Virus record (IMG/VR): IMGVR_UViG_3300010158_000120
Span: 1 to 45,138 of that record
DNA: 45,138 nucleotides
DNA from: a virus
Reading direction: 5' to 3' (one strand)
Positions within the stretch are counted from its first letter, which is position 1, and every line of letters begins with the position of its first letter. Made by a program: the position numbers and the translations under genes. Under the pieces are notes generated by a model. It was given only the letters and a program-made list of their open reading frames with translations, was not told the DNA's origin and made no database searches. This document shows positions 10,251 to 35,610 of this stretch, one piece after another.

Positions 10251-10260
10251 TAATAAATAT
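10251..10260 (-). promoter_or_regulatory. Putative late-type box ATATTTATTA
   Basis: Only four bases separate this box from the ATG at 10246, so if it is a promoter the transcript would be nearly leaderless. It overlaps the stop of the large fusion gene. Confidence 0.4.
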
Positions 10261-13200
10261 TAGTTCTCTCGTCTTTCCTCTGGTTTGTAGTGAGCTATTC
10301 TATTGTGTAGGATAGGACTGGCTAGCAATACCGCAGGTTTTAAATTGCCTTTTACTGTTTCTTGGAACATATAACTCATCCAAGTCTGTTCGTAAGGGTG
10401 TGCCCATGTGGTATCTAAGAACATTTTTTGATTGCCGATCTTTCCGCATATAGTCGGCCAGTTCGCATAGTATACATCTCCTGTGATATAGCCAAGACCG
10501 TCTAGAAATTCTATTTTATCGAAAGAGGTTCTTGGACAGTTTGGATCTAATCCGTGTTCTGGTAACTTATCGTATTCTGGGTAGAATTTCGTTCTTACCG
10601 CTTGAGGAATATTGTACCATGACACTTGAATGTTATTATCCATATAAACTTCTGTAAAAGATAACTTTAAGAAATCAACTTCAGAAGACTCCATTATTTT
10701 TACAAGCTTATCGTATAAATTATCAACGTACATTCTAAATCCATTTCTACAGAATCCAAGTTCTTCTGGAGGATTCACACCCATATCGTCTTCTAAGAAT
10801 AGATAGTAATCGCTATCGGATTCTTGGAAGTGCTGAGCAGCTCTGAATCTACCACCATTAATGCCCGTATTTTCGTTTGTTATGATATGCTCGAAACCGT
10901 ACTTATCGCACAGCAGTTTATTCGCTTGTCTTGCTTCGTCGTTGGTAGAATTATCGATTAAAATATTTCTAGTGTTTGTAATAAACTTAGGATGCTTTAA
11001 CCAAGTTTGTATTGTGTGCTCTACTTGATGAGGAAAATTAAAGGTCAACATATAGATCGACACTTTTATTTTGTCAACGTCTATGAATCGCTTTGTCAAT
11101 TTAGCTCGGCCTTCTGGTATCGGTTCTAATTCTGCGACATCGTCTAATGTTTTTTGTACGAACTCTTGAATGTGCCCGTTAATACCAATTCTAGTGGTTC
11201 TAAATAATTCTGGATATCTGTGAGCTAATATAGAGAATAAACTTTCCTCTGTGCCCAAAAATCCTTCGTTTAAAGAATCGTTAGTTAAGTGCCAATAATA
11301 ACTGTTTGCTTCTTTGATTGCTTCTCTAGTTCCACCGAATAGTCCGCCTCTACATATCCACTCAACAGTTCCACCGGCCATTCTATTTAATGCATCCCAA
11401 TTAAATCCATGAACTTCACCAACTCCTTTATCAAAATATGGATAAGGATACTGAACGAATAGGAATGGATCAATATATTTTTCTAACTTATCAAAGAATC
11501 TGTCGTGTATTAATAGGTTGTAGTTAATTGTGTTTGAAATACCAGCATCTACCCATGCAAATTTTTCTGTATCGAATGGGTTGTATATGCTAGCGTCGTG
11601 TAGCAATGACATCTTAGACATTACAATCGGATTGTACCATTCAGAACTGCCTTGTGGAGAATCCTTTAACCAACCAGTTTGATTAATCCACGCATCGCTT
11701 GTTCTAATTGCTTGAGCTTTGTCCCAAAAATCGCCAAACATATTTTTAATGTCAGATAATTCAAAGTATTTTATTGCCGTATTAGATGGGCTTCTTCTTT
11801 GCCATACAAACTCTTCTAGCTCTTTAGGAATGAATAAAAATAAATTAATATCAACCTTCAACAATTTATCAAAGCATTCTAAATAGTGCTCAAAAGATCT
11901 ACCAGGTCTACCGATATCCCATAAACCGGTAACCATTGTTAAATTACTTTTTGTTTTTTTCCAATTATAATTTTCAGGTACTTGTTTTGCAAATTCAATG
12001 TCTATAGCTTCTATGTCTTGATTGCCAGTTTCGTACGCATAACCTCCGATTTCTAATTTCTCTTTTAAAGCGGCCAATTCCTCTGGTAAAAGATTCATGT
12101 GTTCTATTCTAATACACTTAGGTCTGTATTTAGTTAAGTCTAATTGTTTGAATATTTCCCAATCCATGCCTTCTGTATCTGTTAAGAACACATCTATTTT
12201 TTCTACGTTATTCTTTTTTAATATAGAATCGAGTGTAAGACAGTTAGCATTTATTTTTTCTGAGTAATTATCTTTTACAAAAATATCTCTTTCGTAATCT
12301 GATCCAAAACCGTTTCTTGGAGGAAATGCAGTTGCCATTCCTTTGTAACCTAATTGTAAATCGTATTCTTGTATTTTACTTTCTGGAACATACATCATCT
12401 CTAGAGTTCCATCGTAATCTGCCACTGCTACATTTTCAAATATGTGATTAGGTCTTGTACTTAAATTGCTTTTTAATTTCTCAAATACTTCAGGTATAGG
12501 TTCTACAAATATTCCACCCCAACTGTACATGTCAATGTAGCCTCTCATATCGTCGAAAGTAATACCGTCCATTGCACCCGCTTGAAATACAAATATGTCT
12601 TGAAAGTTTTTACCCAAATAATGTAATGCGATTGCTAAAGAGTCCTCGTATGGCTTTTCGTATCCGGCTCTTTCTATTGCACCTATTGGTTCCTCTTGAG
12701 GCGTAGATACATTTTCGTTATTAAAATCAGTTATTGATTCTAATAGACCTCTTCTAGAACCTGTCTTTTTAACTATTAAAAGATTACCATTAAAAAAATA
12801 TTCGTGATCTTTTATTACATTTAAAATCTCTTCTCTATAATCGATAAAAGCATTTAACGAATCTCCACCTCCACCTAAATCTTCAATAACATAAAATCCT
12901 CCGGTTCTAACACGACCAAAAAAGTTTTTTATTGTTTGAGTTTGAGCTGCAGATTGGTGTAAACCATCGTCGATAACAATATCAAACATTGAAGTGCTTA
13001 ATTGTTTATCGCACGCATGCTTGTCCAAAGAATCGCATATATAAGTAGAGATTCTGTCTTCTGTAAATTTACAATCTTCTGCAATATCTAATCCTGATAT
13101 TTCGGCTTTTGGAAAATAATCTCTCCAAACTCTTAACGATCCCCCTTGTACGTAATTTTCGTAGTAGATTTCTCTAATCTGTCTAAAGTGACCTTTCACG

Positions 13201-13346
13201 TTTATGTCAAGACTTCCAATTCCTATTTCTAATAAAGAAGTAACTTCGTTCTTAATATCGTTAAAAAGATATTCGTAACTTTTAGAGTAACCACTTATTG
13301 CCTTATCGGTACCGTACTGGTCCATCAGAGCATCTAAACTTTGCAT
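10260..13346 (-). CDS. Four-domain glycan-modifying fusion: methyltransferase, FkbM, HtrL-type and GT2-type glycosyltransferases, 1028 aa
   Basis: Four domains can be read. At 1-200 is a class I SAM-dependent methyltransferase (LLEIGIGS 38-45, GLDI, FDIVIDDGLH). At about 230-455 is an FkbM-type methyltransferase (FQAGAMDG 254-261, VEPIPEVFEKL, ENVAVAD). At about 465-735 is a HtrL/YibB (WlaTC) glycosyltransferase-like domain (LTMVTGLWDIGR, then FAWVDAG 596-602). At about 760-1028 is a GT-A family 2-like glycosyltransferase with the DxD-type motif LEDDM (851-855). FkbM and HtrL members act on sugars of glycolipids, O-antigens or glycoproteins. No membrane segment is visible, so a cytosolic acceptor is likely. 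It follows the carbamoyltransferase by six bases. The combined role, adding and methylating sugars, is inferred. Confidence 0.75.
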   Translation of the reverse strand: MQSLDALMDQYGTDKAISGYSKSYEYLFNDIKNEVTSLLEIGIGSLDINVKGHFRQIREIYYENYVQGGSLRVWRDYFPKAEISGLDIAEDCKFTEDRISTYICDSLDKHACDKQLSTSMFDIVIDDGLHQSAAQTQTIKNFFGRVRTGGFYVIEDLGGGGDSLNAFIDYREEILNVIKDHEYFFNGNLLIVKKTGSRRGLLESITDFNNENVSTPQEEPIGAIERAGYEKPYEDSLAIALHYLGKNFQDIFVFQAGAMDGITFDDMRGYIDMYSWGGIFVEPIPEVFEKLKSNLSTRPNHIFENVAVADYDGTLEMMYVPESKIQEYDLQLGYKGMATAFPPRNGFGSDYERDIFVKDNYSEKINANCLTLDSILKKNNVEKIDVFLTDTEGMDWEIFKQLDLTKYRPKCIRIEHMNLLPEELAALKEKLEIGGYAYETGNQDIEAIDIEFAKQVPENYNWKKTKSNLTMVTGLWDIGRPGRSFEHYLECFDKLLKVDINLFLFIPKELEEFVWQRRSPSNTAIKYFELSDIKNMFGDFWDKAQAIRTSDAWINQTGWLKDSPQGSSEWYNPIVMSKMSLLHDASIYNPFDTEKFAWVDAGISNTINYNLLIHDRFFDKLEKYIDPFLFVQYPYPYFDKGVGEVHGFNWDALNRMAGGTVEWICRGGLFGGTREAIKEANSYYWHLTNDSLNEGFLGTEESLFSILAHRYPELFRTTRIGINGHIQEFVQKTLDDVAELEPIPEGRAKLTKRFIDVDKIKVSIYMLTFNFPHQVEHTIQTWLKHPKFITNTRNILIDNSTNDEARQANKLLCDKYGFEHIITNENTGINGGRFRAAQHFQESDSDYYLFLEDDMGVNPPEELGFCRNGFRMYVDNLYDKLVKIMESSEVDFLKLSFTEVYMDNNIQVSWYNIPQAVRTKFYPEYDKLPEHGLDPNCPRTSFDKIEFLDGLGYITGDVYYANWPTICGKIGNQKMFLDTTWAHPYEQTWMSYMFQETVKGNLKPAVLLASPILHNRIAHYKPEERREN

Positions 13347-13352
13347 TTAAAA

Positions 13353-15026
13353 CTATTTAATTTTTTTTATGTAGTAATTTTCTAGGATCAAACAATCCAT
13401 TTGAGTGTCTTGTAATATTTTGAAAGCGTCTTTAATTGTAGAAAGAATTGGTCTTCCATCCAAATTAAAGGAAGTATTTAATAAAACTCCTACGCCATTT
13501 TGTTTTTCAAACTCGGTCAATAAATCGTACAGCCATTCGTTCTGTTCTCTTGTTACCGTTTGTACTCTAGCTGTACCGTCTACGTGAGTAATTGCAGATA
13601 GCTTCTCTTGCCACTCTTCTCTAACTGTTGGACAAAAACTCATCCATCTTGATTCTCCTTCCCATTCGAAGTACTTAGATACATCTTCCAATCTTACAAC
13701 TGGTGCAAACGGTCTGTACCACTCTCTGTGTTTTACTTTTTCGTTTAGCACGTCTTTCATATCAGCAATTGAAGGATTACATATAATACTTCTGTTACCT
13801 AATGCACGTGGACCGTGTTCTGCTCTGCCTCTTGCTACTCCAACTATTTTGCCTTCTAATATGTCTTTTGCTAAAACTTCTATATCACATTTAGTAGTAG
13901 TAAAGTTAACGCTACTGTCATGAATGTATTGAGACAAAGAATCGAAATCCTGTAAAGTTAAACCTGAATATGTAGCATCGAAAGCCTCTTGTGGTTTTAA
14001 TATATTTAACATAGAACCCAAAGCAATACCACAATCGTTAGGTCCAGGTCCAACAAATACTTTTTTACCAAACTCTTTTACCAATCTAGTATTGAATATA
14101 ATGTTTAAGCCACAACCGCCTGCTACGCATATAGGTAAATCAGGATACTGCTCCATGTAAGGTTTAACTACTTCTAAGAAAGCCTCTTCGAAAGCTCTTT
14201 GACTTGTTGCAGCTACGTTGTATTCTAATTCGTCTTTTAATCTGTCAAATACGTCAAACTTAACTCCAATCTTCTCTCCTAATGCATTGATCTTGGATTC
14301 AAAGTCGTAATAACCCGTAGTGTCCCAAGGCCCAAAGTGATTGCCGTTAGGATCGCTCTTATAAAATTCTATGAAATGAGGTACCCACTCTTCTACTACT
14401 TTTCCGTAAGAAGCAAGTCCCATAATTTTTCCTGGATAAACTAGGTTGCCTATGTTCAAAGGCTCTTTCTTTATAGAAGACAAATACTCACCAAATACCA
14501 TATAAGGAAAACCTAGATCGTAGTATATGTGAGGATTATTTTCTATTGGATTTATTACCGATTCTAATAACTTAGGAGATTCTCCTCTAATTGCGTGATA
14601 GATATTAAACTTACCGTCGTTTCCTCCACCGTCAACAGAGAATACTAAAGCCTCTTGAAAATTTGATTGATAAAAACAACCGGCTGCATGAGATTCGTGG
14701 TGTAAACAGTGATGATAGTTTTCTGCGTTAATGTATTTTTCTAATTCGTGTTTTTCTTCGATTATTACATCGCAGTTCAAGTAATAACAGTTTTCAAACT
14801 TGTCTATGTTTAATTTTTCGCGAATAAAATTTGGGATGTATTCTGCCAAGAATAATAGATCGTGGTTTTTAGGGCACATATACTGCGCCATACCACTATT
14901 TTTATAATTTAAAAAACGTTCTACTTCCAATACTAAAAGTATTTCCCCTTCTGATTCTACAACATATGCTGAGTTATGAGAACCATAAAATGCTATATTG
15001 GCTTTTATTTTATTGTTATTTTGCAT
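13353..15026 (-). CDS. NodU/CmcH/TobZ-family O-carbamoyltransferase, 557 aa
   Basis: Transfers a carbamoyl group from carbamoyl phosphate (via carbamoyl-adenylate) to a hydroxyl, usually on a sugar or antibiotic. Clear family marks are HHCLHHESHAA (105-115), with the metal-binding His residues of the N-terminal Kae1/YrdC-related domain, VDGGGNDG (131-138), the Gly-rich CVAGGCGLN and GPGPNDCGIALG, and the C-terminal domain with RAEHGPRALGNRSI and LNTSFNLDG. Length is normal and the protein looks complete. It sits between a putative glycosyltransferase (1-base overlap) and the methyltransferase/glycosyltransferase fusion, so a sugar substrate is most likely. Carbamoyltransferases also occur in phage DNA-hypermodification pathways, an alternative here. 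Confidence 0.9.
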   Translation of the reverse strand: MQNNNKIKANIAFYGSHNSAYVVESEGEILLVLEVERFLNYKNSGMAQYMCPKNHDLLFLAEYIPNFIREKLNIDKFENCYYLNCDVIIEEKHELEKYINAENYHHCLHHESHAAGCFYQSNFQEALVFSVDGGGNDGKFNIYHAIRGESPKLLESVINPIENNPHIYYDLGFPYMVFGEYLSSIKKEPLNIGNLVYPGKIMGLASYGKVVEEWVPHFIEFYKSDPNGNHFGPWDTTGYYDFESKINALGEKIGVKFDVFDRLKDELEYNVAATSQRAFEEAFLEVVKPYMEQYPDLPICVAGGCGLNIIFNTRLVKEFGKKVFVGPGPNDCGIALGSMLNILKPQEAFDATYSGLTLQDFDSLSQYIHDSSVNFTTTKCDIEVLAKDILEGKIVGVARGRAEHGPRALGNRSIICNPSIADMKDVLNEKVKHREWYRPFAPVVRLEDVSKYFEWEGESRWMSFCPTVREEWQEKLSAITHVDGTARVQTVTREQNEWLYDLLTEFEKQNGVGVLLNTSFNLDGRPILSTIKDAFKILQDTQMDCLILENYYIKKIK

Positions 15027-15958
15027 TAATTATATAATTTTTTTAGATCTATTTTTTCAAGCAAAACGCTTGCATTTTTATATTCGTTCCCGTTTTCTTT
15101 ATACCACTCGTGTCCATTTTTAGCTATAAATTTTATATAGTCTAGATCTTTTTTTACTTCGTTGTATCTTTCGTACATTCTATCAGATAATTGTTTATAA
15201 AAAATATCGCAGCTATTTTTGTCTAAATCTTCTATATCGACAGAAATATAATGATAGTCCGGTATTAATTCATTGTGAAATTTTACATTTAACTTTGGTC
15301 TAAATAAAGCTGTTCCTGTACCCATTATTTCTATATCTCTATTGCATATTTCTCCTACTCCATTTAAGCTTAAATTCACCCAATTACTCGATAATTCATA
15401 TATGTATTCCGAATAAAGCTTGTGATCAAATTCTATATTTAACACATTAAACCTATCGTCTTTAGTTAAATACTCTCTAAATAGATATACTCTTCCTCTA
15501 AACGGTAATTTTTCAGGTACTGTTCTTGCTATATTTTGTTTTTGTACTTCGATAACGATCTGATCAAAATCTGGTCTAAATGAAGTATAAGAAATTGGAG
15601 TATAATTAAAGTTATAGCTATTAGAAAAACAATCGAAATAACAAATTCCACAAGAAGTTAATATCTCTACACAATTTTCTATATCCCAATTGGTATTGAA
15701 CACATCTTTTAAATTATCCCAATAAGATACTATAATATATTTTTTATTCTCAGGATTTTCAATAATCATAAAGAAATGTCCATGCTTATTTCCAGGAGAA
15801 TACTGTCCAGGAGGTTGGTAAATTTTATCCATTTCAGAATTATCTATAAATTGAAATTCTATTTCTGGATATCTTTTAATTAGTTCTTCGTGAACAATAC
15901 TAAGAGCCTTTGCAAAAGAGTAAAGAGTATTATTAGAATAATAAATAATTAACTTCAT
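15026..15958 (-). CDS. Putative glycosyltransferase, CAP10/GT90-like C-terminus, 310 aa
   Basis: The N-terminal half is not recognised. The C-terminal third, with SLNGVGEICNRDIEIMG then ALFRPKL, PDYHYISVD and finally AKNGHEWY, resembles by eye the nucleotide-sugar-binding half of CAP10/GT90 and related GT-B glycosyltransferases, where a Gly-x-Gly-Glu turn is followed by a Cys-x-Arg-x-x-Glu helix. The match is tentative. I take ATG 15958 as the start; the frame extends to a TTG five codons upstream. Its stop overlaps the carbamoyltransferase start by one base, tying it to the glycan cluster. It may build or extend the sugar that is later carbamoylated. Confidence 0.5.
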   Translation of the reverse strand: MKLIIYYSNNTLYSFAKALSIVHEELIKRYPEIEFQFIDNSEMDKIYQPPGQYSPGNKHGHFFMIIENPENKKYIIVSYWDNLKDVFNTNWDIENCVEILTSCGICYFDCFSNSYNFNYTPISYTSFRPDFDQIVIEVQKQNIARTVPEKLPFRGRVYLFREYLTKDDRFNVLNIEFDHKLYSEYIYELSSNWVNLSLNGVGEICNRDIEIMGTGTALFRPKLNVKFHNELIPDYHYISVDIEDLDKNSCDIFYKQLSDRMYERYNEVKKDLDYIKFIAKNGHEWYKENGNEYKNASVLLEKIDLKKLYN

Positions 15959-16003
15959 TAAATCAGTTTTCAATATTTTGATAAAAATACTCCATTTTAT
16001 TTT

Positions 16004-17281
16004 TTAATTTATTGCGTGTTCGATTCTTTCTGCCCAACCAATCTCTTCAGAGAATCCCCAGAATACAACTCGTTTAGGCGTTTTATCGGTCAAGAAAAAC
16101 TCTTCGTAGTGTATCTGTTGGCCCTTATGCATGAAGTCTTCTAGTTGTTGACCGTCTATGTATTTGTGATTGATTGAATTTCCATTCTCATCGTCGAATG
16201 CAATCAAGATATGTTTGTAATCTTTTCTTGGAAAATCATGAGGATACACTGTAACCAAATGATAGAAAGATCCCATAAAAGATTGTTCCCATAATTCGTC
16301 GTCTGAAATGTAAGGATTAGGAGGATAGTTATTGTCTAGCGTATATTTCTGAACCGCCTTTCTTTGAAAATTAAAACCAGCGTATTTCTCGTAATCTCTT
16401 AAAGTTCTAACTGTTCCTAAATCGTAGCCAGTTAAATCAATGTTTGGATCCTCTTCAGTTCCTAGTAACACTCTAATCTTCTTTCTTGCATACTCTTGCT
16501 TTTGGAACCAATCAACGCCGAATTTAGCATCATCATCCCATTTCAACATGTTAGCTCTTTCTTCTCTCATAGTAGAATGCCAAACAACTAACTTGTGTGG
16601 ATGGAATAGATCGTATCCATGAGTGTAAGATCTAACTGTTAAGTTTAATTCCTCTCCACTAAAGTAGATATCTGGATCGTGTCTAATCTCCTTTGCCCAT
16701 TCAGCTCTAGCAAAACAGAAGTGGCCAGATAAAAACCTACTCATTGGTGGTTCAGTCATGTCTTGCCAACCGGTTAATAATCCTGGTCTAATAAAGATAG
16801 TTCCGTGAGGATAGAAGCAAGCAAAGGTCTGTTGCCATGGCTCCATAGTGCGTCCTCCTGGATCGTTAAATGGAGTATACAATGGCAAATAAGCCCCTAA
16901 GATTGGTTTGTAACCTTGAGCTTCTAAACCGCCATGCATTTCAAGCAAGGTCTCGTCCCAATTCTCTGCAAATCTGTGATGAGAATCTAATTGTAAAATG
17001 TAGTATTGATCTGTTAAAAGCTTCTCGTTAATTTGAGCTCTAGCCCATGGTAGACCTTGAGCTTCGGTATACAAAACGTCCATGATATGAAAACGTTTGT
17101 CTTCTCTGTACTCGTCTAGGTTATCGAAAAGATCTTCTGGGTTATACTGTCTGCAGATACCAAAGTGTACTCTTTTTGGGTACTTGGCGTTTTCTAGTGC
17201 TGACTTAATTGTTGGTACTAATTCTGGATCTCTATATGCTGGGAGATGCAACAGAATGGTTGGATGTTTACTTTTTGCCAT
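16004..17281 (-). CDS. GT60-like polypeptide GlcNAc-transferase, paralogue 1, 425 aa
   Basis: Resembles the GT60 / Pfam 'GlcNAc' glycosyltransferases, cytoplasmic GT-A enzymes that transfer GlcNAc from UDP-GlcNAc to proteins (Skp1 hydroxyproline in Dictyostelium). It opens with a strand and AYRDPELVPTI (15-25), has LDSHHRFAENWD (98-109) with the metal-binding DxH-type motif, then PMSRFLSGHF and FSGEELNLTVRSYTHGYDLF for acceptor and catalytic regions. The C-terminal ~90 residues form a separate domain shared with its paralogue at 22182, ending in WAERIEHAI. The gene lies directly after the Ser/Thr/Pro-repeat fibre genes on the same strand, which are obvious candidate substrates. The sugar and linkage are inferred. 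Confidence 0.75.
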   Translation of the reverse strand: MAKSKHPTILLHLPAYRDPELVPTIKSALENAKYPKRVHFGICRQYNPEDLFDNLDEYREDKRFHIMDVLYTEAQGLPWARAQINEKLLTDQYYILQLDSHHRFAENWDETLLEMHGGLEAQGYKPILGAYLPLYTPFNDPGGRTMEPWQQTFACFYPHGTIFIRPGLLTGWQDMTEPPMSRFLSGHFCFARAEWAKEIRHDPDIYFSGEELNLTVRSYTHGYDLFHPHKLVVWHSTMREERANMLKWDDDAKFGVDWFQKQEYARKKIRVLLGTEEDPNIDLTGYDLGTVRTLRDYEKYAGFNFQRKAVQKYTLDNNYPPNPYISDDELWEQSFMGSFYHLVTVYPHDFPRKDYKHILIAFDDENGNSINHKYIDGQQLEDFMHKGQQIHYEEFFLTDKTPKRVVFWGFSEEIGWAERIEHAIN

Positions 17282-17586: not shown

Positions 17587-20364
17587 TTAAGGGCAAACAA
17601 CATTTGAATTATCAGATATACCTGTAATGTAAGCATCAGAGGTTACATAAACAGATGAATTGACTTGCGCATCACTGGATTCAGTACAGTTATATTGATA
17701 ATCTGATGCTCCACCGCTAACAGTAATTTGAGCTATAGCAGCATATTGAGCAACACTACCAACTTCCGTTTGTACTAAGTCCGTAGTTGATACATTGTAT
17801 ATAGTTCCAATAGCTCCATTAGTTGTTGTATAAACTACTTGTGTTCCGTTAACATAAATTGACATATATCCATTTCCCGTACCACCTGTTTTAGAATAAC
17901 TCCAACCTATTGAGAATACAGTAGGACTCGGAGATGCAGGAGGCGTAGGACTAGGAGTTGGTGTACTACTTGGAGCCGGTGTGTTGCTAGGTGCTGGTGT
18001 ATTACTTGGTGCAGGAGTTACTGAAACTGAAGGAGTACTGCTTACTGATACACTAGGAGTAACTGAAGGACTAGGAGAACTAGTTACAGACGCTGATGGA
18101 GTAACTGAAGCACTTGGAGTTCTTGTTACACTCACAGAAGGAGTAACTGATGGAGATGTCGTTACTGAAACTGTTACAGATGGCGTAACTGAAGGACTAG
18201 TTGTGCTAGTTATTGAGACGCTTGGAGTTACTGAGCTACTTGGAGTTCTTGTTATTGTAATACTAGGTGTAACCGTCGGAGTAATTGATATGCTTGGCGT
18301 TACGGTTACAGTTACAGAAGGAGTCACACTAATACTTGGTGTTGCTGATATACTTACCGAAGGCGTTACGCTAATACTAGGAGTTACCGATATGCTTACA
18401 GAAGGAGTAACAGATGCGCTAGGCGTAACAGTTACGGTTACCGAAGGAGTTACACTAATACTAGGAGTGGCTGTTATGGATACGCTCGGAGTAACTGAAG
18501 CCGAAGGAGTCGCTGATACCGCCGATGTTCCAGAAATAGAAGGCGTTACCGATATCGAAGGAGTAACTGTAGGCGTTACTGATACTGTTGGAGTAACTGA
18601 TATTGTTGGTGTTGTAGTCGGTGTTATGGTTATACTTGGAGTAACTGATACGCTCGCTGTTCTTGTAACGCTTGGAGTAACTGATATGCTAGGCGTCAAT
18701 GATACAGAAACGCTAGGCGTAATTGATATCGAAGGAGTTACAGAAACTGTAGGAGTTACTGATACTGCGGATGTAGTAGATATCGATGTAGATGGAGTTA
18801 CTGAAACACTTATACTAGGTGTAATCGATATACTAGGCGTAATCGATATTGAAGAAGTTGTAGTTACACTTGGAGTAACTGTTGGAGTCGCTGATACCGC
18901 CGATGTTCCAGAAATAGATGGAGTAACTGAAATTGAAGGAGTAACTGTAGGTGTTACTGATACAGTAGTCGTTGTAGATACACTCGGCGTCACTGAAACT
19001 GTAGGCGTAACAGATACTGCAGAAGTTGTAGATATAGATGTAGATGGAGTTACTGAAACAGTTATGCTTGGAGTAACTGATACTGTTGGTGTTACTGATA
19101 CCGCTGATGTTGTTGAAATAGACGGCGTTACAGAAATAGAAGAAGTTGTAGTTACACTAGGAGTTGTAGTTGGTGTTATTGATACCGCAGATGTTCCAGA
19201 AATAGATGGAGTTACCGATACACTTGGAGTAACTGAAATTGAAGGCGTAACCGTCGGTGTTATTGATACAGTAGTAGTTGTAGATACACTAGGGGTAGCA
19301 GAAATTCCAGGCGTAGTTGAAACAGATGGAGTAACTGATACACTAGGAGTAGCTGAAGGCGTTACTGAAGCTCCTCCTGCACTTGGTGTAGTAGAAATAC
19401 TTGGAGTCACAGAAACACTAACAGCGCCAGCACTTGGTGTAGCAGATGGAGTTGTTGTAGGTGTTACTGAAGCTCCACCAACTGAAGGAGTTGTTGATAT
19501 GCTTGGAGTTGCAGAAACTGTAGGTGTAACAGATACTATAGGAGTTGTTGATACACTTGGAGTTGCACTTGTACTAATACTAGGCGTGATAGAAATAGTA
19601 GGTGTTATCGATACTGTACGAGTTGGAGTAACAGATACACTATTTGTAACCGATATAGACGGAGTTACTGAAATGGTGGCTGTCGCTGATAAACTAGGCG
19701 TTACTGAGGTGCTAGGCGTTACCGATAAAGATGGAGTTACTGTAACCGAAGGAGTAGTTGTAGGAGTTATCGAAGTAGTGACGCTTGGAGTTACAGATAT
19801 GCTTGGCGTAACGGATGCAGATGGAGTACTAGTAACTGCTGGCGTTCCTGATACGGATGCGGTAACAGATATCGATGGTGTTATAGAAACTGATGAGGTC
19901 ACACTAACGCTAGGAGTAGTTGATACGGTAACGCTTGGAGTTATAGATGTGCTCGGTGTAACAGAAGGAGAAGCCGTAACAGACATTGAAGGAGTTACGG
20001 ATGTGCTACGCGTTACTGTAACCGATGGAGTAGTTGTGGGAGTAATAGAAACAGTAATGCTAGGAGTAATAGAAACGCTTGGTGTAACAGAAATAGACGG
20101 TGTAACAGAGATTGATGGAGTGGCGCTTGGACTAACTGATACAGATGCAGTAATAGAAGGCGTAACGGAAATTGATGGAGTAACAGAAGTAGAAGGTGTT
20201 GGAGAAAGTCCTGGTAATTCTGGCTGAGGCGCATCTAAAGCTCCATTATTATTAATTATGGTAGATTGTAACGCAAGATCTTGTCCTCTACCAGAAATCT
20301 TATTCTGATAATTTATTTTTTTGGATGATGTTCCAAATGTCGATCTTCTACCGTTTAATGCCAT
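17587..20364 (-). CDS. Mucin-like Ser/Thr/Pro-repeat fibre protein, 925 aa
   Basis: A short basic N-terminus (1-52, probably the virion anchor) is followed by about 760 residues built almost only of Ser, Thr, Pro, Val and Ile in SVTPS-type pentapeptides (about 53-816). A folded, strand-rich C-terminal domain of about 109 residues ends in NVVCP. The repeat region cannot form a normal globular core and should be an extended stalk dense in possible O-glycosylation sites, as in mucins. No signal peptide. It lies in the tail-fibre part of the late block with three similar proteins and two GT60-like enzymes. The C-terminal domain contains GTIYNV, as does the neighbour at 20394 (GYIYNV), perhaps a related receptor-binding fold. 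The long antisense frame across it is an artefact of the repeats. Confidence 0.8.
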   Translation of the reverse strand: MALNGRRSTFGTSSKKINYQNKISGRGQDLALQSTIINNNGALDAPQPELPGLSPTPSTSVTPSISVTPSITASVSVSPSATPSISVTPSISVTPSVSITPSITVSITPTTTPSVTVTRSTSVTPSMSVTASPSVTPSTSITPSVTVSTTPSVSVTSSVSITPSISVTASVSGTPAVTSTPSASVTPSISVTPSVTTSITPTTTPSVTVTPSLSVTPSTSVTPSLSATATISVTPSISVTNSVSVTPTRTVSITPTISITPSISTSATPSVSTTPIVSVTPTVSATPSISTTPSVGGASVTPTTTPSATPSAGAVSVSVTPSISTTPSAGGASVTPSATPSVSVTPSVSTTPGISATPSVSTTTTVSITPTVTPSISVTPSVSVTPSISGTSAVSITPTTTPSVTTTSSISVTPSISTTSAVSVTPTVSVTPSITVSVTPSTSISTTSAVSVTPTVSVTPSVSTTTTVSVTPTVTPSISVTPSISGTSAVSATPTVTPSVTTTSSISITPSISITPSISVSVTPSTSISTTSAVSVTPTVSVTPSISITPSVSVSLTPSISVTPSVTRTASVSVTPSITITPTTTPTISVTPTVSVTPTVTPSISVTPSISGTSAVSATPSASVTPSVSITATPSISVTPSVTVTVTPSASVTPSVSISVTPSISVTPSVSISATPSISVTPSVTVTVTPSISITPTVTPSITITRTPSSSVTPSVSITSTTSPSVTPSVTVSVTTSPSVTPSVSVTRTPSASVTPSASVTSSPSPSVTPSVSVSSTPSVSVTPAPSNTPAPSNTPAPSSTPTPSPTPPASPSPTVFSIGWSYSKTGGTGNGYMSIYVNGTQVVYTTTNGAIGTIYNVSTTDLVQTEVGSVAQYAAIAQITVSGGASDYQYNCTESSDAQVNSSVYVTSDAYITGISDNSNVVCP
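17917..20208 (-). repeat. Pentapeptide-coding repeat tract (SVTPS type), largest copy
   Basis: A run of 15-base coding units for SVTPS variants (SITPS, SVTPT, STTPS, SGTSA). The protein pattern is constant but third codon positions vary freely, so neighbouring units differ at the DNA level. Confidence 0.9.
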
Positions 20365-20393: not shown

Positions 20394-22142
20394 TTAACAA
20401 GCTCCTGCATATCCAGCATTTGCTGTAATATATAATGTTACGTTAGATGTTACTCTATACGCCTGACTTCCATAAGGATTTGCACTACAAGCGCTAGGAG
20501 CAGAAGGATATCCACTACCTACAGCCATATTAATTGCAGTACCAGCATTATCTACAGCTGGTCCTCCACCAGAACCATAATCACAAGCCAATTGTAATGT
20601 TGTTAAATTAGGAACGTTGTATATATAACCGACTAAACCACCGCTAGTACTAACAGCTCCTGATAATTGAGTATTACTAAACCATATATCATCGCTCCAC
20701 CAGATATATTGACTAGGGCTTAAAGCTCCGCTTGATTTAGCATATACTGTAACTGTCCAAGTAGGAGGTACTCCACTTACGCTAGGAGAAGGAGTGGAAC
20801 TCACTGCTGGTGTATTACTTGGTGCTGGTGTTACAGATATGCTAGGAGTTGCAGATATTGATGCGCTTGGTGTAACGGATACTGAAGGAGTAACAGATAC
20901 TGAAGGAGTAACTGAAACGCTTGGAGTAACCGATACTGAAGGCGTTACACTAATACTTGTAGTTACCGAAGGCGTTACTGATATCGATGGAGTAGCGCTA
21001 ATAGAAACAGAAGGCGTAACCGATGGTGATACAGTTACCGAAACAGTTACTGAAGGAGTTACCGATATACTAGGCGTAGCCGATATAGAAATGCTCGGAG
21101 TTACACTAATACTCGTAGTTACTGAAGGAGTTCTAGACGGCGTAATTGAAGAACTAGGCGTTTGAGTTACTGTTATAGATGGAGTTACGCTAATGCTTGG
21201 TGTCGCTGATATGCTTACAGAAGGTGTAACAGATACGGAAGAGGTAACTGTAATAGTTGGCGTAACTGTAATGCTTGGAGTCACACTAATACTAGGTGTA
21301 ACTGATATGCTAGGTGTTGCTGATATAGAAATGCTTGGCGTAACTGAAATACTTGGAGTTACACTAACACTAGGCGTATTAGATATAGAAATAGTAGGTG
21401 TTATCGATACGCTATTTGTAACAGACAAACTAGGAGTTACCGATGTACTAGGAGTTACCGATACTGATGGTGTTGTCGAAGGAGTCACCGTAGGAGTAAT
21501 CGATATGGTTGGTGTTATAGTAGGCGTTATAGATACACTAGGAGTTATTGAAACGCTGGCAGTTCTTGTAACACTTGGAGTAACAGAAGCGCTTGGAGTT
21601 ACTGATATCGATGGAGTTCTAGAAGGCGTAGCAGAAGGAGAAGGCGTTGCGCTATTTCCAGGAGTTACCGATATACTTGGAGTAACTGATATTGTAGGAG
21701 TGATAGATATTGTACGCGTAATACTTGGAGTTCTAGATGGCGTATGACTTATACTTGGAGTAATACTAGTACTTGGTGTATTAGTAGGTGTAATACTTGG
21801 AGTTCTAGAAGGGTTGATAGTATTCGTTGGAGTGATACTAACTGTTGGAGTGGCCGTTTTAGTAACTGTTATGCTAGGCGTTTTAGTAATTGATACACTT
21901 GGTGTAATCGTAGGCGTAGTAGAAAAACTAGGAGTTACAGAAAGGCTTGGAGTAGGAGACGGACTATTAGATAGCGGTAGAGGGCCTGGCATTGGACCCG
22001 GAAGACCCGTATTGCTGTTCTTTAATTCAGATTGCACGGCGAAAGGAACCTGTTTAGTTTTAGTTCTATCGCTGTAAAGAAAAACCTGGGTGGTATCGTT
22101 ATTAGGCGCTAGCTTTGATTTTTTGTGATCTCTTAATTCCAC
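20394..22142 (-). CDS. Mucin-like Ser/Thr/Pro-repeat fibre protein, 582 aa
   Basis: N-terminal ~60 residues include a folded part and a Pro-rich hinge (LPGPMPGPLPLSNSPSPTP). Then comes about 395 residues of SVTPS-type repeats (61-456) and a 125-residue strand-rich C-terminal domain with Trp pairs (YIWWSDDIWF), GYIYNV and a terminal Cys. I accept a GTG start at 22142 because it follows a late-type ATATTTATAC box by nine bases and no better ATG precedes the anchor region. Same architecture as the 925-aa protein, with a different anchor. It lies immediately downstream of a GT60-like gene. Confidence 0.8.
   Translation of the reverse strand: MELRDHKKSKLAPNNDTTQVFLYSDRTKTKQVPFAVQSELKNSNTGLPGPMPGPLPLSNSPSPTPSLSVTPSFSTTPTITPSVSITKTPSITVTKTATPTVSITPTNTINPSRTPSITPTNTPSTSITPSISHTPSRTPSITRTISITPTISVTPSISVTPGNSATPSPSATPSRTPSISVTPSASVTPSVTRTASVSITPSVSITPTITPTISITPTVTPSTTPSVSVTPSTSVTPSLSVTNSVSITPTISISNTPSVSVTPSISVTPSISISATPSISVTPSISVTPSITVTPTITVTSSVSVTPSVSISATPSISVTPSITVTQTPSSSITPSRTPSVTTSISVTPSISISATPSISVTPSVTVSVTVSPSVTPSVSISATPSISVTPSVTTSISVTPSVSVTPSVSVTPSVSVTPSVSVTPSASISATPSISVTPAPSNTPAVSSTPSPSVSGVPPTWTVTVYAKSSGALSPSQYIWWSDDIWFSNTQLSGAVSTSGGLVGYIYNVPNLTTLQLACDYGSGGGPAVDNAGTAINMAVGSGYPSAPSACSANPYGSQAYRVTSNVTLYITANAGYAGAC
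20775..21962 (-). repeat. Pentapeptide-coding repeat tract (SVTPS type), second copy
   Basis: About 395 codons of SVTPS, SISAT, TPTIT and related units. Some stretches have near-identical tandem SVTPS units (around 20850-20960), but most differ in synonymous positions. Confidence 0.9.
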
Positions 22143-22181: not shown

Positions 22182-23441
22182 CTATTCGTAATTTATCTTA
22201 TTTTCAATTCTGTCGCACCAGCCCTTAGATTCGCTGTGGGGCCATATTCTCCAAGAATCAGGAGCTATTGCGCTCTCAAAATCTCTCCAGATGTGTACAA
22301 ACTGATCGTCGGCTTCCTGGTTGCGCAATCCATCCATTTCTTGAATAGTCATATCCTGTCTGTATAAGTCCTTGCCATCAGCATCTAATAGAGCAATTGC
22401 GAATGTATCGTAATCGGCTTCTGTCAGAGCGCCTTTCCAAAGATCTATACAAACTTTTCTTTTGTGCATTAGACCTGATTCATAGTCGCCCTTTATTGGT
22501 GGTAGATCATTTGCTACGGTTTCTTTGTGAATTTGTCTTGTTTTGAATTTTAAACCTGCAAATTTCTCGTATTGTTCTAATGTTCTAACCGTACCGAATC
22601 CGTACTGAGCTAATGCTCTTCTTTGACATGGCGTACAAGGCACATCGTCCATTTCGAATAGCTTTCTAAACCTAGCGTAAGAAGCCTTGTCCAACTCTCC
22701 GTAAGTTTTGTGATCGTCCCAATGTCTTTGCTTTCCCTTTCTGGTGTATTCGTGCCAAACAATTGGTCTGTGTGGAGCGTATATGTCGTATCCGTGTGTG
22801 TAAGCTCTTGCGGCCAAACTAGTCTCTTCTCCATGAAAATAAAAATTAGGATCGTAAGGTACCTCTTTAACAAAACTTCCAACAGTGAATATAAAGTGAC
22901 CCGATAAAAATCTGCTTGGAACTGGCTCTGTTAAAGATTTCCAACCGTCAAAGTGATAAGGCTGTAAAAACACTGCACCTTCAGGTAAGAATCTCATAAT
23001 GTTTAATCCCCATACCTCTTGAACTCTGCCTTCAGGATCGTTCTCTGGAAAGTAGCCTGGCACGTAGGAGGAGATGATTGGTTTTTTATTGCCCTTGCAT
23101 CTAAAGTAATTAACGTAATCTTTTAGAGTGGTGTCCCAATTCTTTTCGAATCTGTGATGAGAATCTAGTTGAAAGTAATAGTCTTCTCCTCTATAAAATT
23201 CCTGTATTTTACTTCTAACCCAACAAACTCCGTTAGAATCGGTATGATCTATGTCAAGAATGGTGAATCTTGGATCTCTTACGTATTGGCTCAATGTGTC
23301 CCACTCGTCTTCATTAGAGTGCTGCCAACCAATACAAACGTGCAAATTTTCAGGCTCTGCACTATTTTCCAATAAATTCTTTAAAGTAGGTAAAAGTTCG
23401 GGGTCTCTATAGGACGCTATCGAAACGAAGATTTTTGACAT
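22182..23441 (-). CDS. GT60-like polypeptide GlcNAc-transferase, paralogue 2, 419 aa
   Basis: Same family as the protein at 16004. It begins IFVSIASYRDPELLPTL (4-20), very like cytoplasmic Skp1 GlcNAc-transferases, and carries QLDSHHRFEKNWD (91-103), PSRFLSGHF and FHGEETSLAARAYTHGYDIY. The C-terminal region shared with its paralogue follows TVRTLEQYEKFAG and ends with GWCDRIENKI. No signal peptide or membrane segment, so it acts in the cytoplasm before virion assembly. It sits between two Ser/Thr/Pro-repeat fibre genes. Two diverged copies suggest different acceptors or sequential steps. Sugar specificity is inferred from the family. Confidence 0.8.
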   Translation of the reverse strand: MSKIFVSIASYRDPELLPTLKNLLENSAEPENLHVCIGWQHSNEDEWDTLSQYVRDPRFTILDIDHTDSNGVCWVRSKIQEFYRGEDYYFQLDSHHRFEKNWDTTLKDYVNYFRCKGNKKPIISSYVPGYFPENDPEGRVQEVWGLNIMRFLPEGAVFLQPYHFDGWKSLTEPVPSRFLSGHFIFTVGSFVKEVPYDPNFYFHGEETSLAARAYTHGYDIYAPHRPIVWHEYTRKGKQRHWDDHKTYGELDKASYARFRKLFEMDDVPCTPCQRRALAQYGFGTVRTLEQYEKFAGLKFKTRQIHKETVANDLPPIKGDYESGLMHKRKVCIDLWKGALTEADYDTFAIALLDADGKDLYRQDMTIQEMDGLRNQEADDQFVHIWRDFESAIAPDSWRIWPHSESKGWCDRIENKINYE

Positions 23442-23495: not shown

Positions 23496-25151
23496 TTATG
23501 AAAATATCCTTTTACAACTAGTAGTAGGTATACCAACATTTACTGTAGTAGCTCCTCCATTTACCGTGAAACTATCTCCGTTGTTATAATTAGTTCCATT
23601 TATAACAATTCCGTTTTGGAATTTGTAGTATGATCCTGCGGCTGCGTAGTCTGCATTGGCATAGAATTGGCCACTAAATCCTTTGGTTAAAGTGAAAGTA
23701 GGATAATTTGTAACACCATCTATAGATCCTGCGTTACATGCAGACGTAGTATATGTATACACACTTATACTATACTGATCTATCACTAAATCAGTACCTA
23801 TAGGAGTGCTAAGGGTCAAGCCTATAAATCCGGAACCAAGAGAATTATAGTAATCGTTTAATGCAAGAGTAGTAGACGCAGGATAAGTAAAGCCTGTAGT
23901 GCCTCTTACGTAATAAGTTCTACCTCCAGTAAGCGTAAAATTAGTATTTATGCTATATGTGGTATAATTAGTAGTGCTATTGATTATAGTATTACCAGCG
24001 CTATCAGTAATAGTTAAATTTCTTGTAGAAGTTCCAAAAGCTGGAGGAGCATAAGCCGAATCTCCTGAAGCTTGCGCATATATAGATTGATCTTGATATT
24101 GAGTGCCTCCAACCAACACATCTCCAGGAGTACTGAATACATCATTAACAAGATCTGTGCTCGTAGTATTGTTACGTATATATACATTGTTGTCTAAGAA
24201 TACAGTTCCATCGTTGGCTTCTGTATTTCTGTAATAAAGAACCGCGACCAAAGGAGTTACAGATACTGAAGGCGTGGCGGTTATAGATACACTAGGAGTT
24301 CTCGTTAAAGATACGCTAGGAGTTACTGATATAGAAGGCGTAACTGATACAGATGAAGTTACAGATACGCTTGGAGTTACGGATATACTAGTTGTAACTG
24401 AAGGAGTAACTGATAAACTCGGAGTAACTGAAGGAGAAGGCGTTACTGATAAGCTAGTTGTAACGGAAGGCGTAGCTGATTTTGAAGGCGTTACTGATAA
24501 ACTAGGCGTTATAGATATACTAGTTGTTGCAGAAGGAGTAACTGTCGGAGTAGCGCTAACAGTAATTGATGGTGTAACAGATACTCCCGGTGTTACTGAT
24601 ACAGATTTTGTAACAGATATAGAAGGAGTAACTGAAGGAGAAGCAGTTACAGATACACTAGGCGTTACAGATATTGACGGCGTAGCACTAATAGAAGAGG
24701 AAGGAGTCACACTAATAGAAGGAGTTGCACTTATACTTACAGATGGAGTAGCGCTAATACTTACTGATGGAGTAATTGAGAACGAAGGAGTTACTGTAAT
24801 ACTAGGTGTAACCGATACTGATGGAGTAACTGAAACAGAAGGCGTAACTGATACAGAAGGCGTTGCAGAAATAGAAACGCTAGGAGTAACTGAGTAAGAC
24901 GGAGTAACGGAAGGAGAAGGCGTAGGACTTAATGGTACAATATATTTAAACATTGTATTTAAGCCGCAAGGATCTTGGTTTTCTAGTACTATATATTGAG
25001 CTGCATCAGGAACAGAAACAAGATGGCCGTCCAATAAATCGTCTAATGTAACGTTTAATTCAACAATGTTCAAGAAACTATCCCAATAGATATTAAATGG
25101 ACCTACAGCATTTCCGTATTGAGTAACTCTTATGTATATCGATTGTGCCAT
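23496..25151 (-). CDS. Mucin-like Ser/Thr/Pro-repeat fibre protein, 551 aa
   Basis: A folded N-terminal domain (1-74, strand-rich, with VTQYGNAVGPFNIYWD and a PCG turn) is followed by about 225 residues of SVTPS-type repeats (75-300), then a large C-terminal region of about 250 residues that looks beta-sandwich-like and rich in Thr/Asn/Tyr, ending CKRIFS. The C-terminus is twice the size of those in the other repeat proteins and may be the receptor-binding part. The preceding gene, 18 bases upstream, has the same stalk type; the next gene downstream is a GT60-like enzyme. Confidence 0.8.
   Translation of the reverse strand: MAQSIYIRVTQYGNAVGPFNIYWDSFLNIVELNVTLDDLLDGHLVSVPDAAQYIVLENQDPCGLNTMFKYIVPLSPTPSPSVTPSYSVTPSVSISATPSVSVTPSVSVTPSVSVTPSITVTPSFSITPSVSISATPSVSISATPSISVTPSSSISATPSISVTPSVSVTASPSVTPSISVTKSVSVTPGVSVTPSITVSATPTVTPSATTSISITPSLSVTPSKSATPSVTTSLSVTPSPSVTPSLSVTPSVTTSISVTPSVSVTSSVSVTPSISVTPSVSLTRTPSVSITATPSVSVTPLVAVLYYRNTEANDGTVFLDNNVYIRNNTTSTDLVNDVFSTPGDVLVGGTQYQDQSIYAQASGDSAYAPPAFGTSTRNLTITDSAGNTIINSTTNYTTYSINTNFTLTGGRTYYVRGTTGFTYPASTTLALNDYYNSLGSGFIGLTLSTPIGTDLVIDQYSISVYTYTTSACNAGSIDGVTNYPTFTLTKGFSGQFYANADYAAAGSYYKFQNGIVINGTNYNNGDSFTVNGGATTVNVGIPTTSCKRIFS
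24252..24929 (-). repeat. Pentapeptide-coding repeat tract (SVTPS type), third copy
   Basis: About 225 codons of SVTPS, SISAT and SVTAS units, again with variable synonymous positions. Confidence 0.9.
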
Positions 25152-25168: not shown

Positions 25169-26362
25169 TTAACATGTTGAAATTTGAACTCCAACCACAC
25201 CAGAACTATTTACTGCGTATATCTTATTATCGCTACCTGCAATAGCAGTTAAGTTCGTCCATGGAGTATTGTAAGATTGATACAATGTTATACCTGTTGT
25301 AATGTAAGGTGCCGTAGTTACAGTGTTAGGCAAGTAAACGTTTGAAGCATTCGCTACTGGGAATCCTGAAGACTGTATAAAGCACGGTGTATAGTAATAG
25401 CCCAATGAATTTCCTACCATTGGAGATAAAGAAACTGTTGGAGTTATTGTTACACTAGGCGTTCTAGTCGGTGTTATACTAGGCGTAATCGATATAGTAG
25501 GAGTTATACTTACTGTAATGCTTGGAGTAACCGAAGGTATAGTTCCCGGTGAAGTTGATGGAGTCACTGTAGGCGTAACTGTTGGAGTAGTAGTTACAGT
25601 TGGAGTAGCTGTAGGAGTTATTGTTACGCTAGGAGTTACAGACACAGTCACAGTTACAGAAGGCGTTCTCGTAGGTGGAGGTGGTGGTGTTGCTGTTACC
25701 GTAGGTGTCAATGATGGAGTAACTGTAGGCGTTAAGAACGGAGTCAAACTTATACTTGGTGTAGGTGTTGGACTTGGTAAAATTGCTTGAATGTAAAAAT
25801 CAAAAGTGGGATCTTGAATTAAACATATATAAGTGGGATCAGTAAAAGTAATAATTCCTTGCGAGTATATTACGTTTCCAACTTTTTTATTATCGACCAA
25901 AATGTCTATAACATTTCCATTACCGTCGTCTGTTAAATGATAGTTAGTACTTAATGGATTTGTAGGTAGTATGTGTAAACTATTTCTAGAGATCTGCTCG
26001 CCAAACTGTTTTCTTGGAATATAGAAAAAAGAGACTTGATCGTTGGAACCAGTGGGAAAATATCTAGCGTCTTCGTCACCGCTTCCAGATGCAGCTGTAG
26101 ATTGATCGTAAGAATCGTAAGCGCTACCCGACTTTAACAAAGAACCGGAAATAAAGTTCTTGTAATAAAGCTGTTTGATTAATTGGTATTTTAGAGCATT
26201 ATTATCCAAAGATCCAGTCACGGTCATAGGATGATAGAAGCCCCTATTTATAGTTATTCCTGCGTTGTCAAATGATTCACTTGTATAAGATGCAGAATAC
26301 TTTAATTTAATAGGAGCCGAAGATATGTCTGAAAACCTTATCGTATTCTTCGATCTGCTCAT
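25169..26362 (-). CDS. Virion structural protein with Ser/Thr/Pro-repeat insert, 397 aa
   Basis: A large folded N-terminal domain (1-194) carries the pattern FFYIPRKQFGEQISRNSLHI, DDGNGNVID, then VGNVIYSQGIITFTD, which I recognise from virion proteins of T4-like environmental phages. It is followed by about 120 residues of Thr/Pro/Val-rich repeats (195-315, more TVTPT than SVTPS) and an 82-residue C-terminal domain ending in a Cys. This protein links the conserved tail module upstream with the repeat fibres downstream, and probably anchors to the baseplate or tail. Ten bases separate it from the preceding gene. Confidence 0.75.
   Translation of the reverse strand: MSRSKNTIRFSDISSAPIKLKYSASYTSESFDNAGITINRGFYHPMTVTGSLDNNALKYQLIKQLYYKNFISGSLLKSGSAYDSYDQSTAASGSGDEDARYFPTGSNDQVSFFYIPRKQFGEQISRNSLHILPTNPLSTNYHLTDDGNGNVIDILVDNKKVGNVIYSQGIITFTDPTYICLIQDPTFDFYIQAILPSPTPTPSISLTPFLTPTVTPSLTPTVTATPPPPPTRTPSVTVTVSVTPSVTITPTATPTVTTTPTVTPTVTPSTSPGTIPSVTPSITVSITPTISITPSITPTRTPSVTITPTVSLSPMVGNSLGYYYTPCFIQSSGFPVANASNVYLPNTVTTAPYITTGITLYQSYNTPWTNLTAIAGSDNKIYAVNSSGVVGVQISTC
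25418..25780 (-). repeat. Thr/Pro-rich coding repeat tract, fourth copy
   Basis: About 120 codons of TPTVTPS-like units. Shorter and less regular than the three other tracts, with a Pro run (PPPPP) near the N-terminal third. It could be the ancestral linker that was expanded in the others. Confidence 0.85.
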
Positions 26363-35608: not shown

Positions 35609-35610
35609 CT

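Follow-up and report, generated by a model that had tools for sequence, protein, structure and literature searches.

The open reading frame at 10260..13346 (minus strand) encodes a 1028-residue protein in which two methyltransferase domains are fused to two glycosyltransferase-type domains, and we consider it rather probable that this protein is the extension-and-capping enzyme of a phage-encoded mucin-type protein O-glycosylation system. The window analysed here is the whole 45,138-nucleotide stretch of the IMG/VR virus record IMGVR_UViG_3300010158_000120. The gene lies in an island in which GT60-type glycosyltransferase genes are interleaved with genes for mucin-like repeat proteins.

Domain architecture of the fusion protein

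The frame starts with ATG, and the domain order is MT1, FkbM, HtrL_YibB and GT2-like. The N-terminal MT1 domain (residues 1-205, 12732..13346) matched PDB entry 3ssm with E values of 2.8e-14 for the whole protein and 3.7e-16 for the domain alone, and its predicted fold matched solved MycE/SpnK-type enzymes with a Z score of 19.0 and an rmsd of 3.1 over 188 aligned residues. Six residues (D126, D127, G128, H130, E155, and D156) are invariant in 10 alignment rows and align with 3ssm; we take this DDGxH...ED stretch to be the functional residues of MycE/SpnK-type enzymes. The original prediction had placed a class I methyltransferase at the N-terminus, and the sequence and fold matches specify it as a MycE-like sugar O-methyltransferase, for which sugar O-methyl transfer is predicted.

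The next two domains, anticipated as an FkbM methyltransferase and a HtrL/YibB (WlaTC)-like protein, were both recognized above the Pfam cut-offs. The FkbM domain (residues 235-455, 11982..12644) matched PF05050 at residues 256-421 (E 2.5e-17, 64 bits against a gathering score of 22.7). Its residues G257, E282-P283, D390, E392, and G393 are invariant across the 11 FkbM-bearing rows and are presumably the conserved SAM-site residues. The HtrL_YibB glycosyltransferase-like domain (residues 463-735, 11142..11960) forms the first half of a constant core. It matched PF09612 at residues 468-717 (E 1.1e-11, 45.3 bits against a gathering score of 24.1), as did all 10 scanned relatives above the same score, and D600 is invariant in the alignment. 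While this domain is a Pfam member like other HtrL_YibB or WlaTC-type proteins, it differs from them in its fusion to a GT-A domain in 99 non-redundant core proteins (the rule by which they were selected), 39 of which also carry one or two methyltransferases.

The second half of the core (residues 756-1028, 10263..11081) had been called GT2-like, and this held as a GT-A fold but not as a GT2 domain accepted by Pfam. The match to Glycos_transf_2 (PF00535, residues 763-859, E 4.4e-4) reached 20.7 bits, below the cut-off of 23.3, which was reached by none of the 10 scanned relatives. Pfam alone does not admit the domain, but the GT-A fold is clear and speaks against a chance resemblance: the model of residues 756-1016 matched GT-A enzymes such as human B4GALNT1 (Z 17.4, rmsd 3.2, 198 aligned), and the acidic metal motif E852-D853-D854 is conserved at a level of at least 90%. 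By its model, the fourth domain is thus a GT-A fold glycosyltransferase domain, a wider class than GT2.

The AlphaFold2 model of the fusion has a mean pLDDT of 83.3 and a pTM of 0.43, indicating that the single domains are confident and their mutual arrangement is not. LH3/collagen glycosyltransferases and Mimivirus R699, which contain tandem GT-A domains, were aligned to residues 466-1021 by VIA-align (Z ~13.8) and were also found by Foldseek. The rmsd of 16-18 over both domains, at an identity of 10-12%, limits the likeness to the two-module layout.

Recurrence of the fusion and exchange of its N-terminus

The four-domain order is also present in five other metagenomic contigs (L001, L003, L004, L005, and L010), while L002 is cut at its 5' end. 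The dN/dS values against L001, L002, L003, and L010 are 0.05-0.28 for all four domains, indicating purifying selection. The recurring order and the selection on every domain exclude an assembly error, a frameshift, or a chance read-through, and the fusion is real. The expectation that no phage protein has this order stands for isolates, as none of 50,697 GenBank phage records contained a match with 80% query coverage; it does not extend to metagenomic virus contigs. The whole core was found in three of these records (XacN1, CM1, and RAS14).

In the 99 non-redundant viral relatives, a constant HtrL+GT2 half (~560 aa) follows an N-terminal slot that is empty in 60 and holds one or two methyltransferases in 39. 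On the core tree (86 rows), this slot changed at least 25 times, a count that leaves out partial rows cut at the 5' end (nine named; L006 and L007 are among the partials). A count of 28 that included such rows was discarded for its false module differences. Shuffles gave 28-33 changes with a mean of 32.1, so the modules still follow descent, though only to a small degree. The N-terminus is a swappable slot: related phages keep the glycosyltransferase half and exchange the methyltransferase half. Among pairs with cores about 94% identical, L033 has TylF where L074 has MT1, and L008 has MT1 where L010 has MT1+FkbM. The notion of one fixed assembly line finds no support, as the methyltransferases come and go while the other half stays; it is still plausible that the fusion extends a single glycan in an ordered way and caps it. 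Since close relatives exchange methyl caps but retain the sugar-adding half, diversifying ecological pressure, such as host defence, lectins, glycosidases, or adsorption, probably acts on the cap. The same cassette is found on a bacterial chromosome, that of Jiulongibacter sediminis (L330), and its function need not be phage-specific.

Gene island, GT60-type enzymes and mucin-like repeats

All island genes described here are on the minus strand. Next to the fusion gene, 13353..15026 encodes a NodU/CmcH-type carbamoyltransferase of 557 aa (PF16861 E 1.4e-65, PF02543 E 5.9e-24, phrog_1601 E 4.1e-123). It is followed by U315 (315 aa, 15026..15973), a protein without a family match whose homologues occur at 14 of the 78 core loci and which may, judging from a conserved stretch, be a glycosyltransferase. 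Two GT60-type glycosyltransferases are encoded at 16004..17281 (copy a, 425 aa, PF11397 E 2e-49) and 22182..23441 (copy b, 419 aa, PF11397 E 5.1e-71). The genes of two mucin-like proteins lie between them: one at 17587..20364 (925 aa), in which 797 aa belong to the S/T/P repeat SVTPSISVTPS with 48% S+T, and one at 20394..22142 (582 aa, 447 aa repeat). Two more are encoded at 23496..25151 (551 aa, 259 aa repeat) and 25169..26362 (397 aa, 144 aa repeat). A 748-aa frame on the plus strand (17981-20227) was dropped as the antisense of a repeat. A baseplate wedge subunit gene at 33752..35608 (phrog_6 E 1.3e-24) places the island near tail genes.

The PF11397 scores were 169.4 bits for copy a and 240.4 bits for copy b against a gathering score of 21. 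The motif D93-S94-H95 (copy b numbering) is invariant in 27 rows that include both copies, and a D-x-H motif is the rule for the polypeptide-transferase fold. G204-E205-E206 of copy b is also invariant. Sequence searches of the PDB gave no match for GT60 or U315, an absence that does not count as evidence. The model of copy b (pLDDT 88.5) retrieved GT27 polypeptide GalNAc-transferases in all of Foldseek rows 1-42 and at VIA-align ranks 1-29 (Z 22.8-19.2), with the next family at Z 16.6; the superposition on 6nqt gave Z 22.8 and an rmsd of 3.4 over 274 aligned residues. The fold of copy b is closest to the animal mucin-initiating GalNAc-transferases, and transfer to a polypeptide is predicted.

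In all seven large contigs chosen by GT60 alone, an HtrL gene is located within 8 kb of GT60. Co-occurrence with the core was 66/91 in a set of GT60 loci (L082-L172), a figure that is not independent because the two sets overlap in contigs. The mucin-like coding density was 46.8 bp/kb around the core and 55.5 around GT60, against 5.7 around baseplate gp6. The gp6 control loci average only 11 kb in length, as opposed to 15, and 8 of the 80 contain mucin-like ORFs. GT60 was present in 2 of 8 gp6-control contigs. In a search that started from the repeats in contigs of 30 kb or more, GT60 was found in 16 of 39 mucin-like contigs, whereas none of the 27 contigs that carry collagen-like repeats had it (Fisher p 6e-5). 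Removal of five positive contigs already in other search sets left 11/34 against 0/27 (p 7e-4). PF11397 was absent from the other 23 of the 39, so either mucin-like repeats occur without GT60 too or these contigs are incomplete. Of 8937 mucin residues, 5200 fell within 12 kb, compared with 1088 expected if uniform; this expectation is a rough yardstick and not a test, and some rows are antisense or weak. Two of seven whole island contigs (G008 and G011) have no mucin-like ORF at the applied threshold, and in G001 another mucin cluster lies far away. Mucin-like repeats and GT60 are statistically linked, with these exceptions.

Among the 50,697 phage records, copy b matched XacN1, CM1, and RAS14. 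XacN1 and RAS14, both of which have the island, carry 16 and 9 mucin-like ORFs with TPTPSVTP-like repeats, located outside the island, whereas the large phages RaK2, GAP32, and 121Q have none, and PF11397 was not found in these three. The island of XacN1, a Xanthomonas jumbo phage, contains GT60 (ORF334), a carbamoyltransferase (ORF333), and HtrL+GT2 (ORF330). It is the same island as in the window, but the N-terminal slot of the XacN1 core has no methyltransferase. At least two XacN1 glycoproteins were reported by proteomics, with ORF328 and ORF334, the latter being the island GT60, as suggested makers (PMC5852040). In the available text of that paper, which names the public raw data set PXD008065, only these two ORFs are named as glycosyltransferases and the glycoprotein identities are not stated; neither "threonine" nor "carbamoyl" appears in its main text (PMC5852040).

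Proposed glycosylation of the virion and alternative readings

The pathway that we infer, from the acceptor and the sugars to the location on the virion and the benefit, would run as follows. Both GT60-type enzymes would attach an alpha-linked HexNAc to Thr/Ser in the SVTPS repeats of proteins that the phage itself encodes in its tail region, and the constant HtrL+GT2 half would add one or two further sugars. The growing glycan would be O-methylated by the MycE-like and FkbM domains and would receive a carbamoyl group from the neighbouring carbamoyltransferase. The virion would thereby gain, close to its baseplate, a glycan bristle that is both methylated and carbamoylated. A close described counterpart is that of Trypanosoma cruzi, where GlcNAc-alpha-Thr in mucin-like proteins is the product of a GT60 enzyme (PMC9472816, PMC8724618). 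It shares a PF11397 initiator (TcOGNT), Ser/Thr/Pro-rich mucin-like proteins, and subsequent elongating and capping enzymes (PMC9472816). It differs in operating in a protist Golgi with Gal and sialic acid, while the phage system has predicted methyl and carbamoyl caps, a fused extension/capping enzyme, and a putative acceptor.

A methyltransferase with 27-29% identity to MT1 is present in five mycobacteriophage prophages, in three of which an annotated glycosyltransferase also falls under the match; GT60 copy b has no mycobacteriophage match among the 50,697 phage records. Freeman et al. in 2023 reportedly found that mycobacteriophage virion proteins carry glycans. These are placed on the C-termini of capsid and tail-tube proteins, as cited in PMC12619734. 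A literature search, with most subscription journals and bioRxiv outside its coverage, found no paper on phage mucin-type glycosylation.

HtrL and FkbM domains are well known in gene clusters for lipooligosaccharide and O-antigen, which speaks for an island that remodels the host LPS or capsule, for phage exclusion or masking, with the fusion extending and methylating a host glycan. Sugar-nucleotide enzymes of the GDP-mannose dehydratase type in the related island L016 point the same way, as do jumbo cyanophage glycosyltransferase clusters, read as O-antigen diversifying in PMC7824862. We nevertheless regard remodelling of the host surface as unlikely, given the polypeptide-directed type of the GT60 fold, the tie of GT60 to mucin-like repeats more than to other low-complexity repeats, and the XacN1 glycoproteins. 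An acceptor other than the repeats, which would then be flexible spacers between folded tail modules while GT60 modifies different proteins of the tail or capsid, is also rather improbable. The two islands without mucin-like ORFs and the 23 mucin-like contigs without GT60 would fit such an acceptor, but the excess of GT60 in the mucin-first search, the contrast of XacN1 and RAS14 with the three other large phages, and the interleaving of GT60 and repeat genes argue for the repeats.

Large phages also use glycosyltransferases on DNA, and PMC12619734 proposes such a role for glycosyltransferases that are conserved in large aquatic phages. Modified bases would then be decorated by the glycosyltransferases and their sugar by methyl and carbamoyl groups. 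We consider this very improbable, as the initiator resembles polypeptide transferases, the linkage is to repeat proteins near tail genes, and the PHROG matches obtained for 30 proteins of the window, itself a fragment, included no family of base hypermodification.

Mucin-type O-glycosylation of the repeat proteins is the reading that we prefer. More tentatively, and with some doubt on our side, such phages may possess complete mucin-type pathways, with their own polypeptide HexNAc-transferases, mucins, and an extension enzyme with a plug-in methyltransferase slot, and may achieve antigenic variation of the virion by domain exchange; close relatives would then share one glycan bristle and differ in its methyl caps. 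The core claim is testable in two cultured phages, XacN1 and RAS14. If it is true, a gene set widespread in large environmental phages, with GT60 matches in at least 597 IMG/VR stretches, would gain a concrete job, and the enzymes would offer mucin-type O-glycosylation and glycan methylation from a source that works in the bacterial cytosol. The swappable methyl-cap slot would provide a handle on why phages decorate their virions.

Domain structure of the fusion protein

The ORF at 10260–13346 (minus strand) encodes a protein of 1028 aa, and the original prediction that it joins two methyltransferases and two glycosyltransferases in one chain was confirmed. Pfam matches over the cut-off were obtained for FkbM (residues 256–421, E = 2.5e-17) and HtrL_YibB (residues 468–717, E = 1.1e-11), and the match to Glycos_transf_2 (residues 763–859, E = 4.4e-4) was under its own cut-off. 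In sequence, the first 200 residues match two antibiotic-pathway sugar O-methyltransferases, MycE and SpnK, and the predicted fold of this domain (MT1) is of the same type (Z = 19.0, rmsd 3.1, 188 aligned residues). The predicted structure shows a GT-A fold for the last domain, with human B4GALNT1 as the best match (Z = 17.4, rmsd 3.2, 198 aligned residues). With a mean pLDDT of 83.3 but a pTM of 0.43, the whole-chain model is credible for the individual domains but not for how they are arranged. Each of the four domains is under retention, with dN/dS values of 0.05–0.28 against four relatives (L001, L002, L003, and L010). Taken jointly, the HtrL and GT-A domains align with Mimivirus R699 and with human lysyl hydroxylase 3 (its tandem glycosyltransferase module); the rmsd is 16–18, and the likeness is therefore one of layout only.

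Constant core and variable methyltransferases

A search of IMG/VR with the fusion protein gave 78 loci, which were pooled with loci found via GT60 and via the baseplate gene gp6 and with two phage records (L001–L252 and the window). The pooled set contains 146 HtrL+GT2 core proteins, 99 of which remained after those with at least 95% identity were dropped. No methyltransferase was found ahead of the core in 60 of the 99 (47 begin at the core, and another 13 carry a lead of 30–150 aa; contig ends truncate 7 of these 60), and the other 39 carry one or two methyltransferase domains. Single modules are TylF (8), FkbM (7), MTb (6), MT1 (5), MTc (2, plus 2 cut), and a CmcI-like module whose Pfam match is under the cut-off only (1, L056); double modules are MT1+FkbM (6 including the window, plus 1 cut) and MT1+MTb (1). 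Module kinds were assigned by Pfam (TylF, E = 1.2e-28), with the class I types MTb and MTc corresponding to Methyltransf_12 (E = 1e-8 in L015) and Methyltransf_23 (E = 1.8e-9 in L020), respectively. None of the 99 cores has an N-terminal extension of more than 150 aa other than a methyltransferase. One more contig, G010 (read in L312), encodes TylF+MT1+HtrL+GT2, and thus four-domain chains contain at least three different methyltransferase pairs.

The core tree of 86 complete rows requires at least 25 module changes (28–33 in 200 label shuffles), and the 33 methyltransferase-bearing rows require 18. Complete proteins with approximately 94% identical cores differ in their modules (TylF in L033 and MT1 in L074; MT1 in L008 and MT1+FkbM in L010), as do L013 (FkbM) and L058 (no module) with 93% identical cores. 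The fusion combines a double glycosyltransferase that stays constant with a slot into which methyltransferases plug. Five loci (L061, L063, L064, L067, and L070) each have one extra stand-alone HtrL-like gene of ~280 aa, 0.5–0.7 kb upstream from the core; this arrangement may be a sign that adjacent genes were joined to form the core.

Island genes and mucin-like repeats

Upstream of the fusion, on the same strand, are genes for a carbamoyltransferase, a 315-aa protein, two glycosyltransferases of PF11397, which we take to be the Pfam family of GT60 polypeptide GlcNAc-transferases, and four proteins in which Ser/Thr/Pro/Val repeats (e.g., SVTPSISVTPS) make up part or most of the chain. The largest repeat protein (925 aa) is 48% Ser+Thr and its charged residues (K, R, D, and E) number only 22; baseplate wedge genes (33752–36024) come after the repeat-protein genes. 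The 315-aa protein (15026–15973, minus strand) belongs to a fast-evolving island family and gave no family match and no PDB sequence match. A GIY-YIG SegE-like homing endonuclease (9448–9918, minus strand; PF19835, E = 1.3e-28) directly adjoins the island and might help in mobilizing or reshuffling it. Downstream of the fusion, a 101-aa protein (9941–10246, minus strand) resembles by eye the C-terminus of a 357-aa tail-region protein (26372–27445, minus strand; YATTVGLYNDSDELLVVGKLS versus YPTTVGMYNNNNELLAVAKLS), and the pair forms a small duplication on the flanks of the island.

The model of the second GT60 copy (22182–23441, minus strand) has a pLDDT of 88.5. Polypeptide GalNAc-transferases occupied the first 42 rows in Foldseek and ranks 1–29 in VIA-align (Z = 22.8–19.2; next family, 16.6), and neither D93-S94-H95 nor E205-E206 varies among 27 sequences. 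The GT60 enzymes have been described as differing from the animal mucin-initiating GT27 mainly by the absence of a C-terminal ricin-like domain (PMC8724618), and the predicted structure agrees with this kinship. In T. cruzi, GlcNAc-alpha-Thr in mucin-like proteins is reported to be made by a GT60 enzyme (PMC9472816). Two GT60 domains occur in tandem in one chain in L026 (2822–5437) and in a 900-aa open frame of G052.

Among the 78 core loci, 61 have GT60 and 34 have a mucin-like ORF. The mucin-like coding density was 46.8 bp/kb in these loci and 55.5 bp/kb in 91 GT60 loci, versus 5.7 bp/kb in 80 gp6 loci. All seven large contigs chosen by GT60 alone (L102, L103, L120, L121, L125, L146, and L157) have a single HtrL match no more than 8 kb from GT60. 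Conversely, a degenerate DNA pattern of two SVTPS-like units gave 78 stretches, all with a mucin-like ORF; PF11397 was present in 16 of the 39 contigs of at least 30 kb found in this way (14 of the 16 also have HtrL), versus none of 27 contigs of at least 30 kb found by a collagen-like repeat (Fisher p = 6e-5) and 2 of 8 gp6 contigs (16/39 versus 2/35 for both sets together, p = 4e-4). The same script found 16 mucin-like ORFs (one weak) in the cultured phage XacN1 and 9 in RAS14, and none in the large phages RaK2, GAP32, and 121Q, in which PF11397 was not found. Against the link, PF11397 is missing from 23 of the 39 mucin-first contigs, no mucin-like ORF is present in two of seven whole contigs that carry the island, and the repeats in XacN1 and RAS14 sit elsewhere in the genome.

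The XacN1 island has GT60 (ORF334), a carbamoyltransferase (ORF333), and the core (ORF330) near a baseplate gene. Proteomic analysis of XacN1 indicated at least two glycoproteins, ORF328 and ORF334 were suggested as the glycosyltransferases making them, and tail fibers were reported as not seen (PMC5852040); the words “threonine” and “carbamoyl” are absent from the main text of that paper.

Cellular relatives and proposed pathway

Eleven core relatives lie in bacterial and archaeal genome contigs, with GT60 near the core in eight (L329, L330, L331, L333, L334, L335, L336, and L338). A 1.3-Mb contig of a Jiulongibacter sediminis isolate (L330, 3104–10307) has two GT60 genes; GT60, carbamoyltransferase, and FkbM+HtrL+GT2 stand in a row, accompanied by sugar-nucleotide genes and a mucin-like ORF, and the cassette is therefore cellular as well. 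Most of the other cellular contigs are metagenome bins that may contain phage DNA, and transfer between phage and cell could have run either way.

The setting of the fusion resembles an island for mucin-type O-glycosylation by the phage. The original reading of the fusion as a glycan assembly line needs widening to include the constant double glycosyltransferase, the plug-in methyltransferase slot, and this island. We infer the enzymatic steps, the acceptor, and the benefit of the pathway, which probably runs from a GT60 start through HtrL+GT2 extension to methyl and carbamoyl groups. GT60 would attach the first HexNAc to Thr/Ser within the repeats, the HtrL+GT2 half would lengthen the HexNAc-started glycan, MT1 and FkbM would methylate it, and the carbamoyltransferase would supply a carbamoyl group. 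With the caps fused to the extender, capping and extension would stay coordinated. Methyltransferases are exchanged while the extender remains fixed, a pattern suggesting that selection acts to vary the terminal chemistry.
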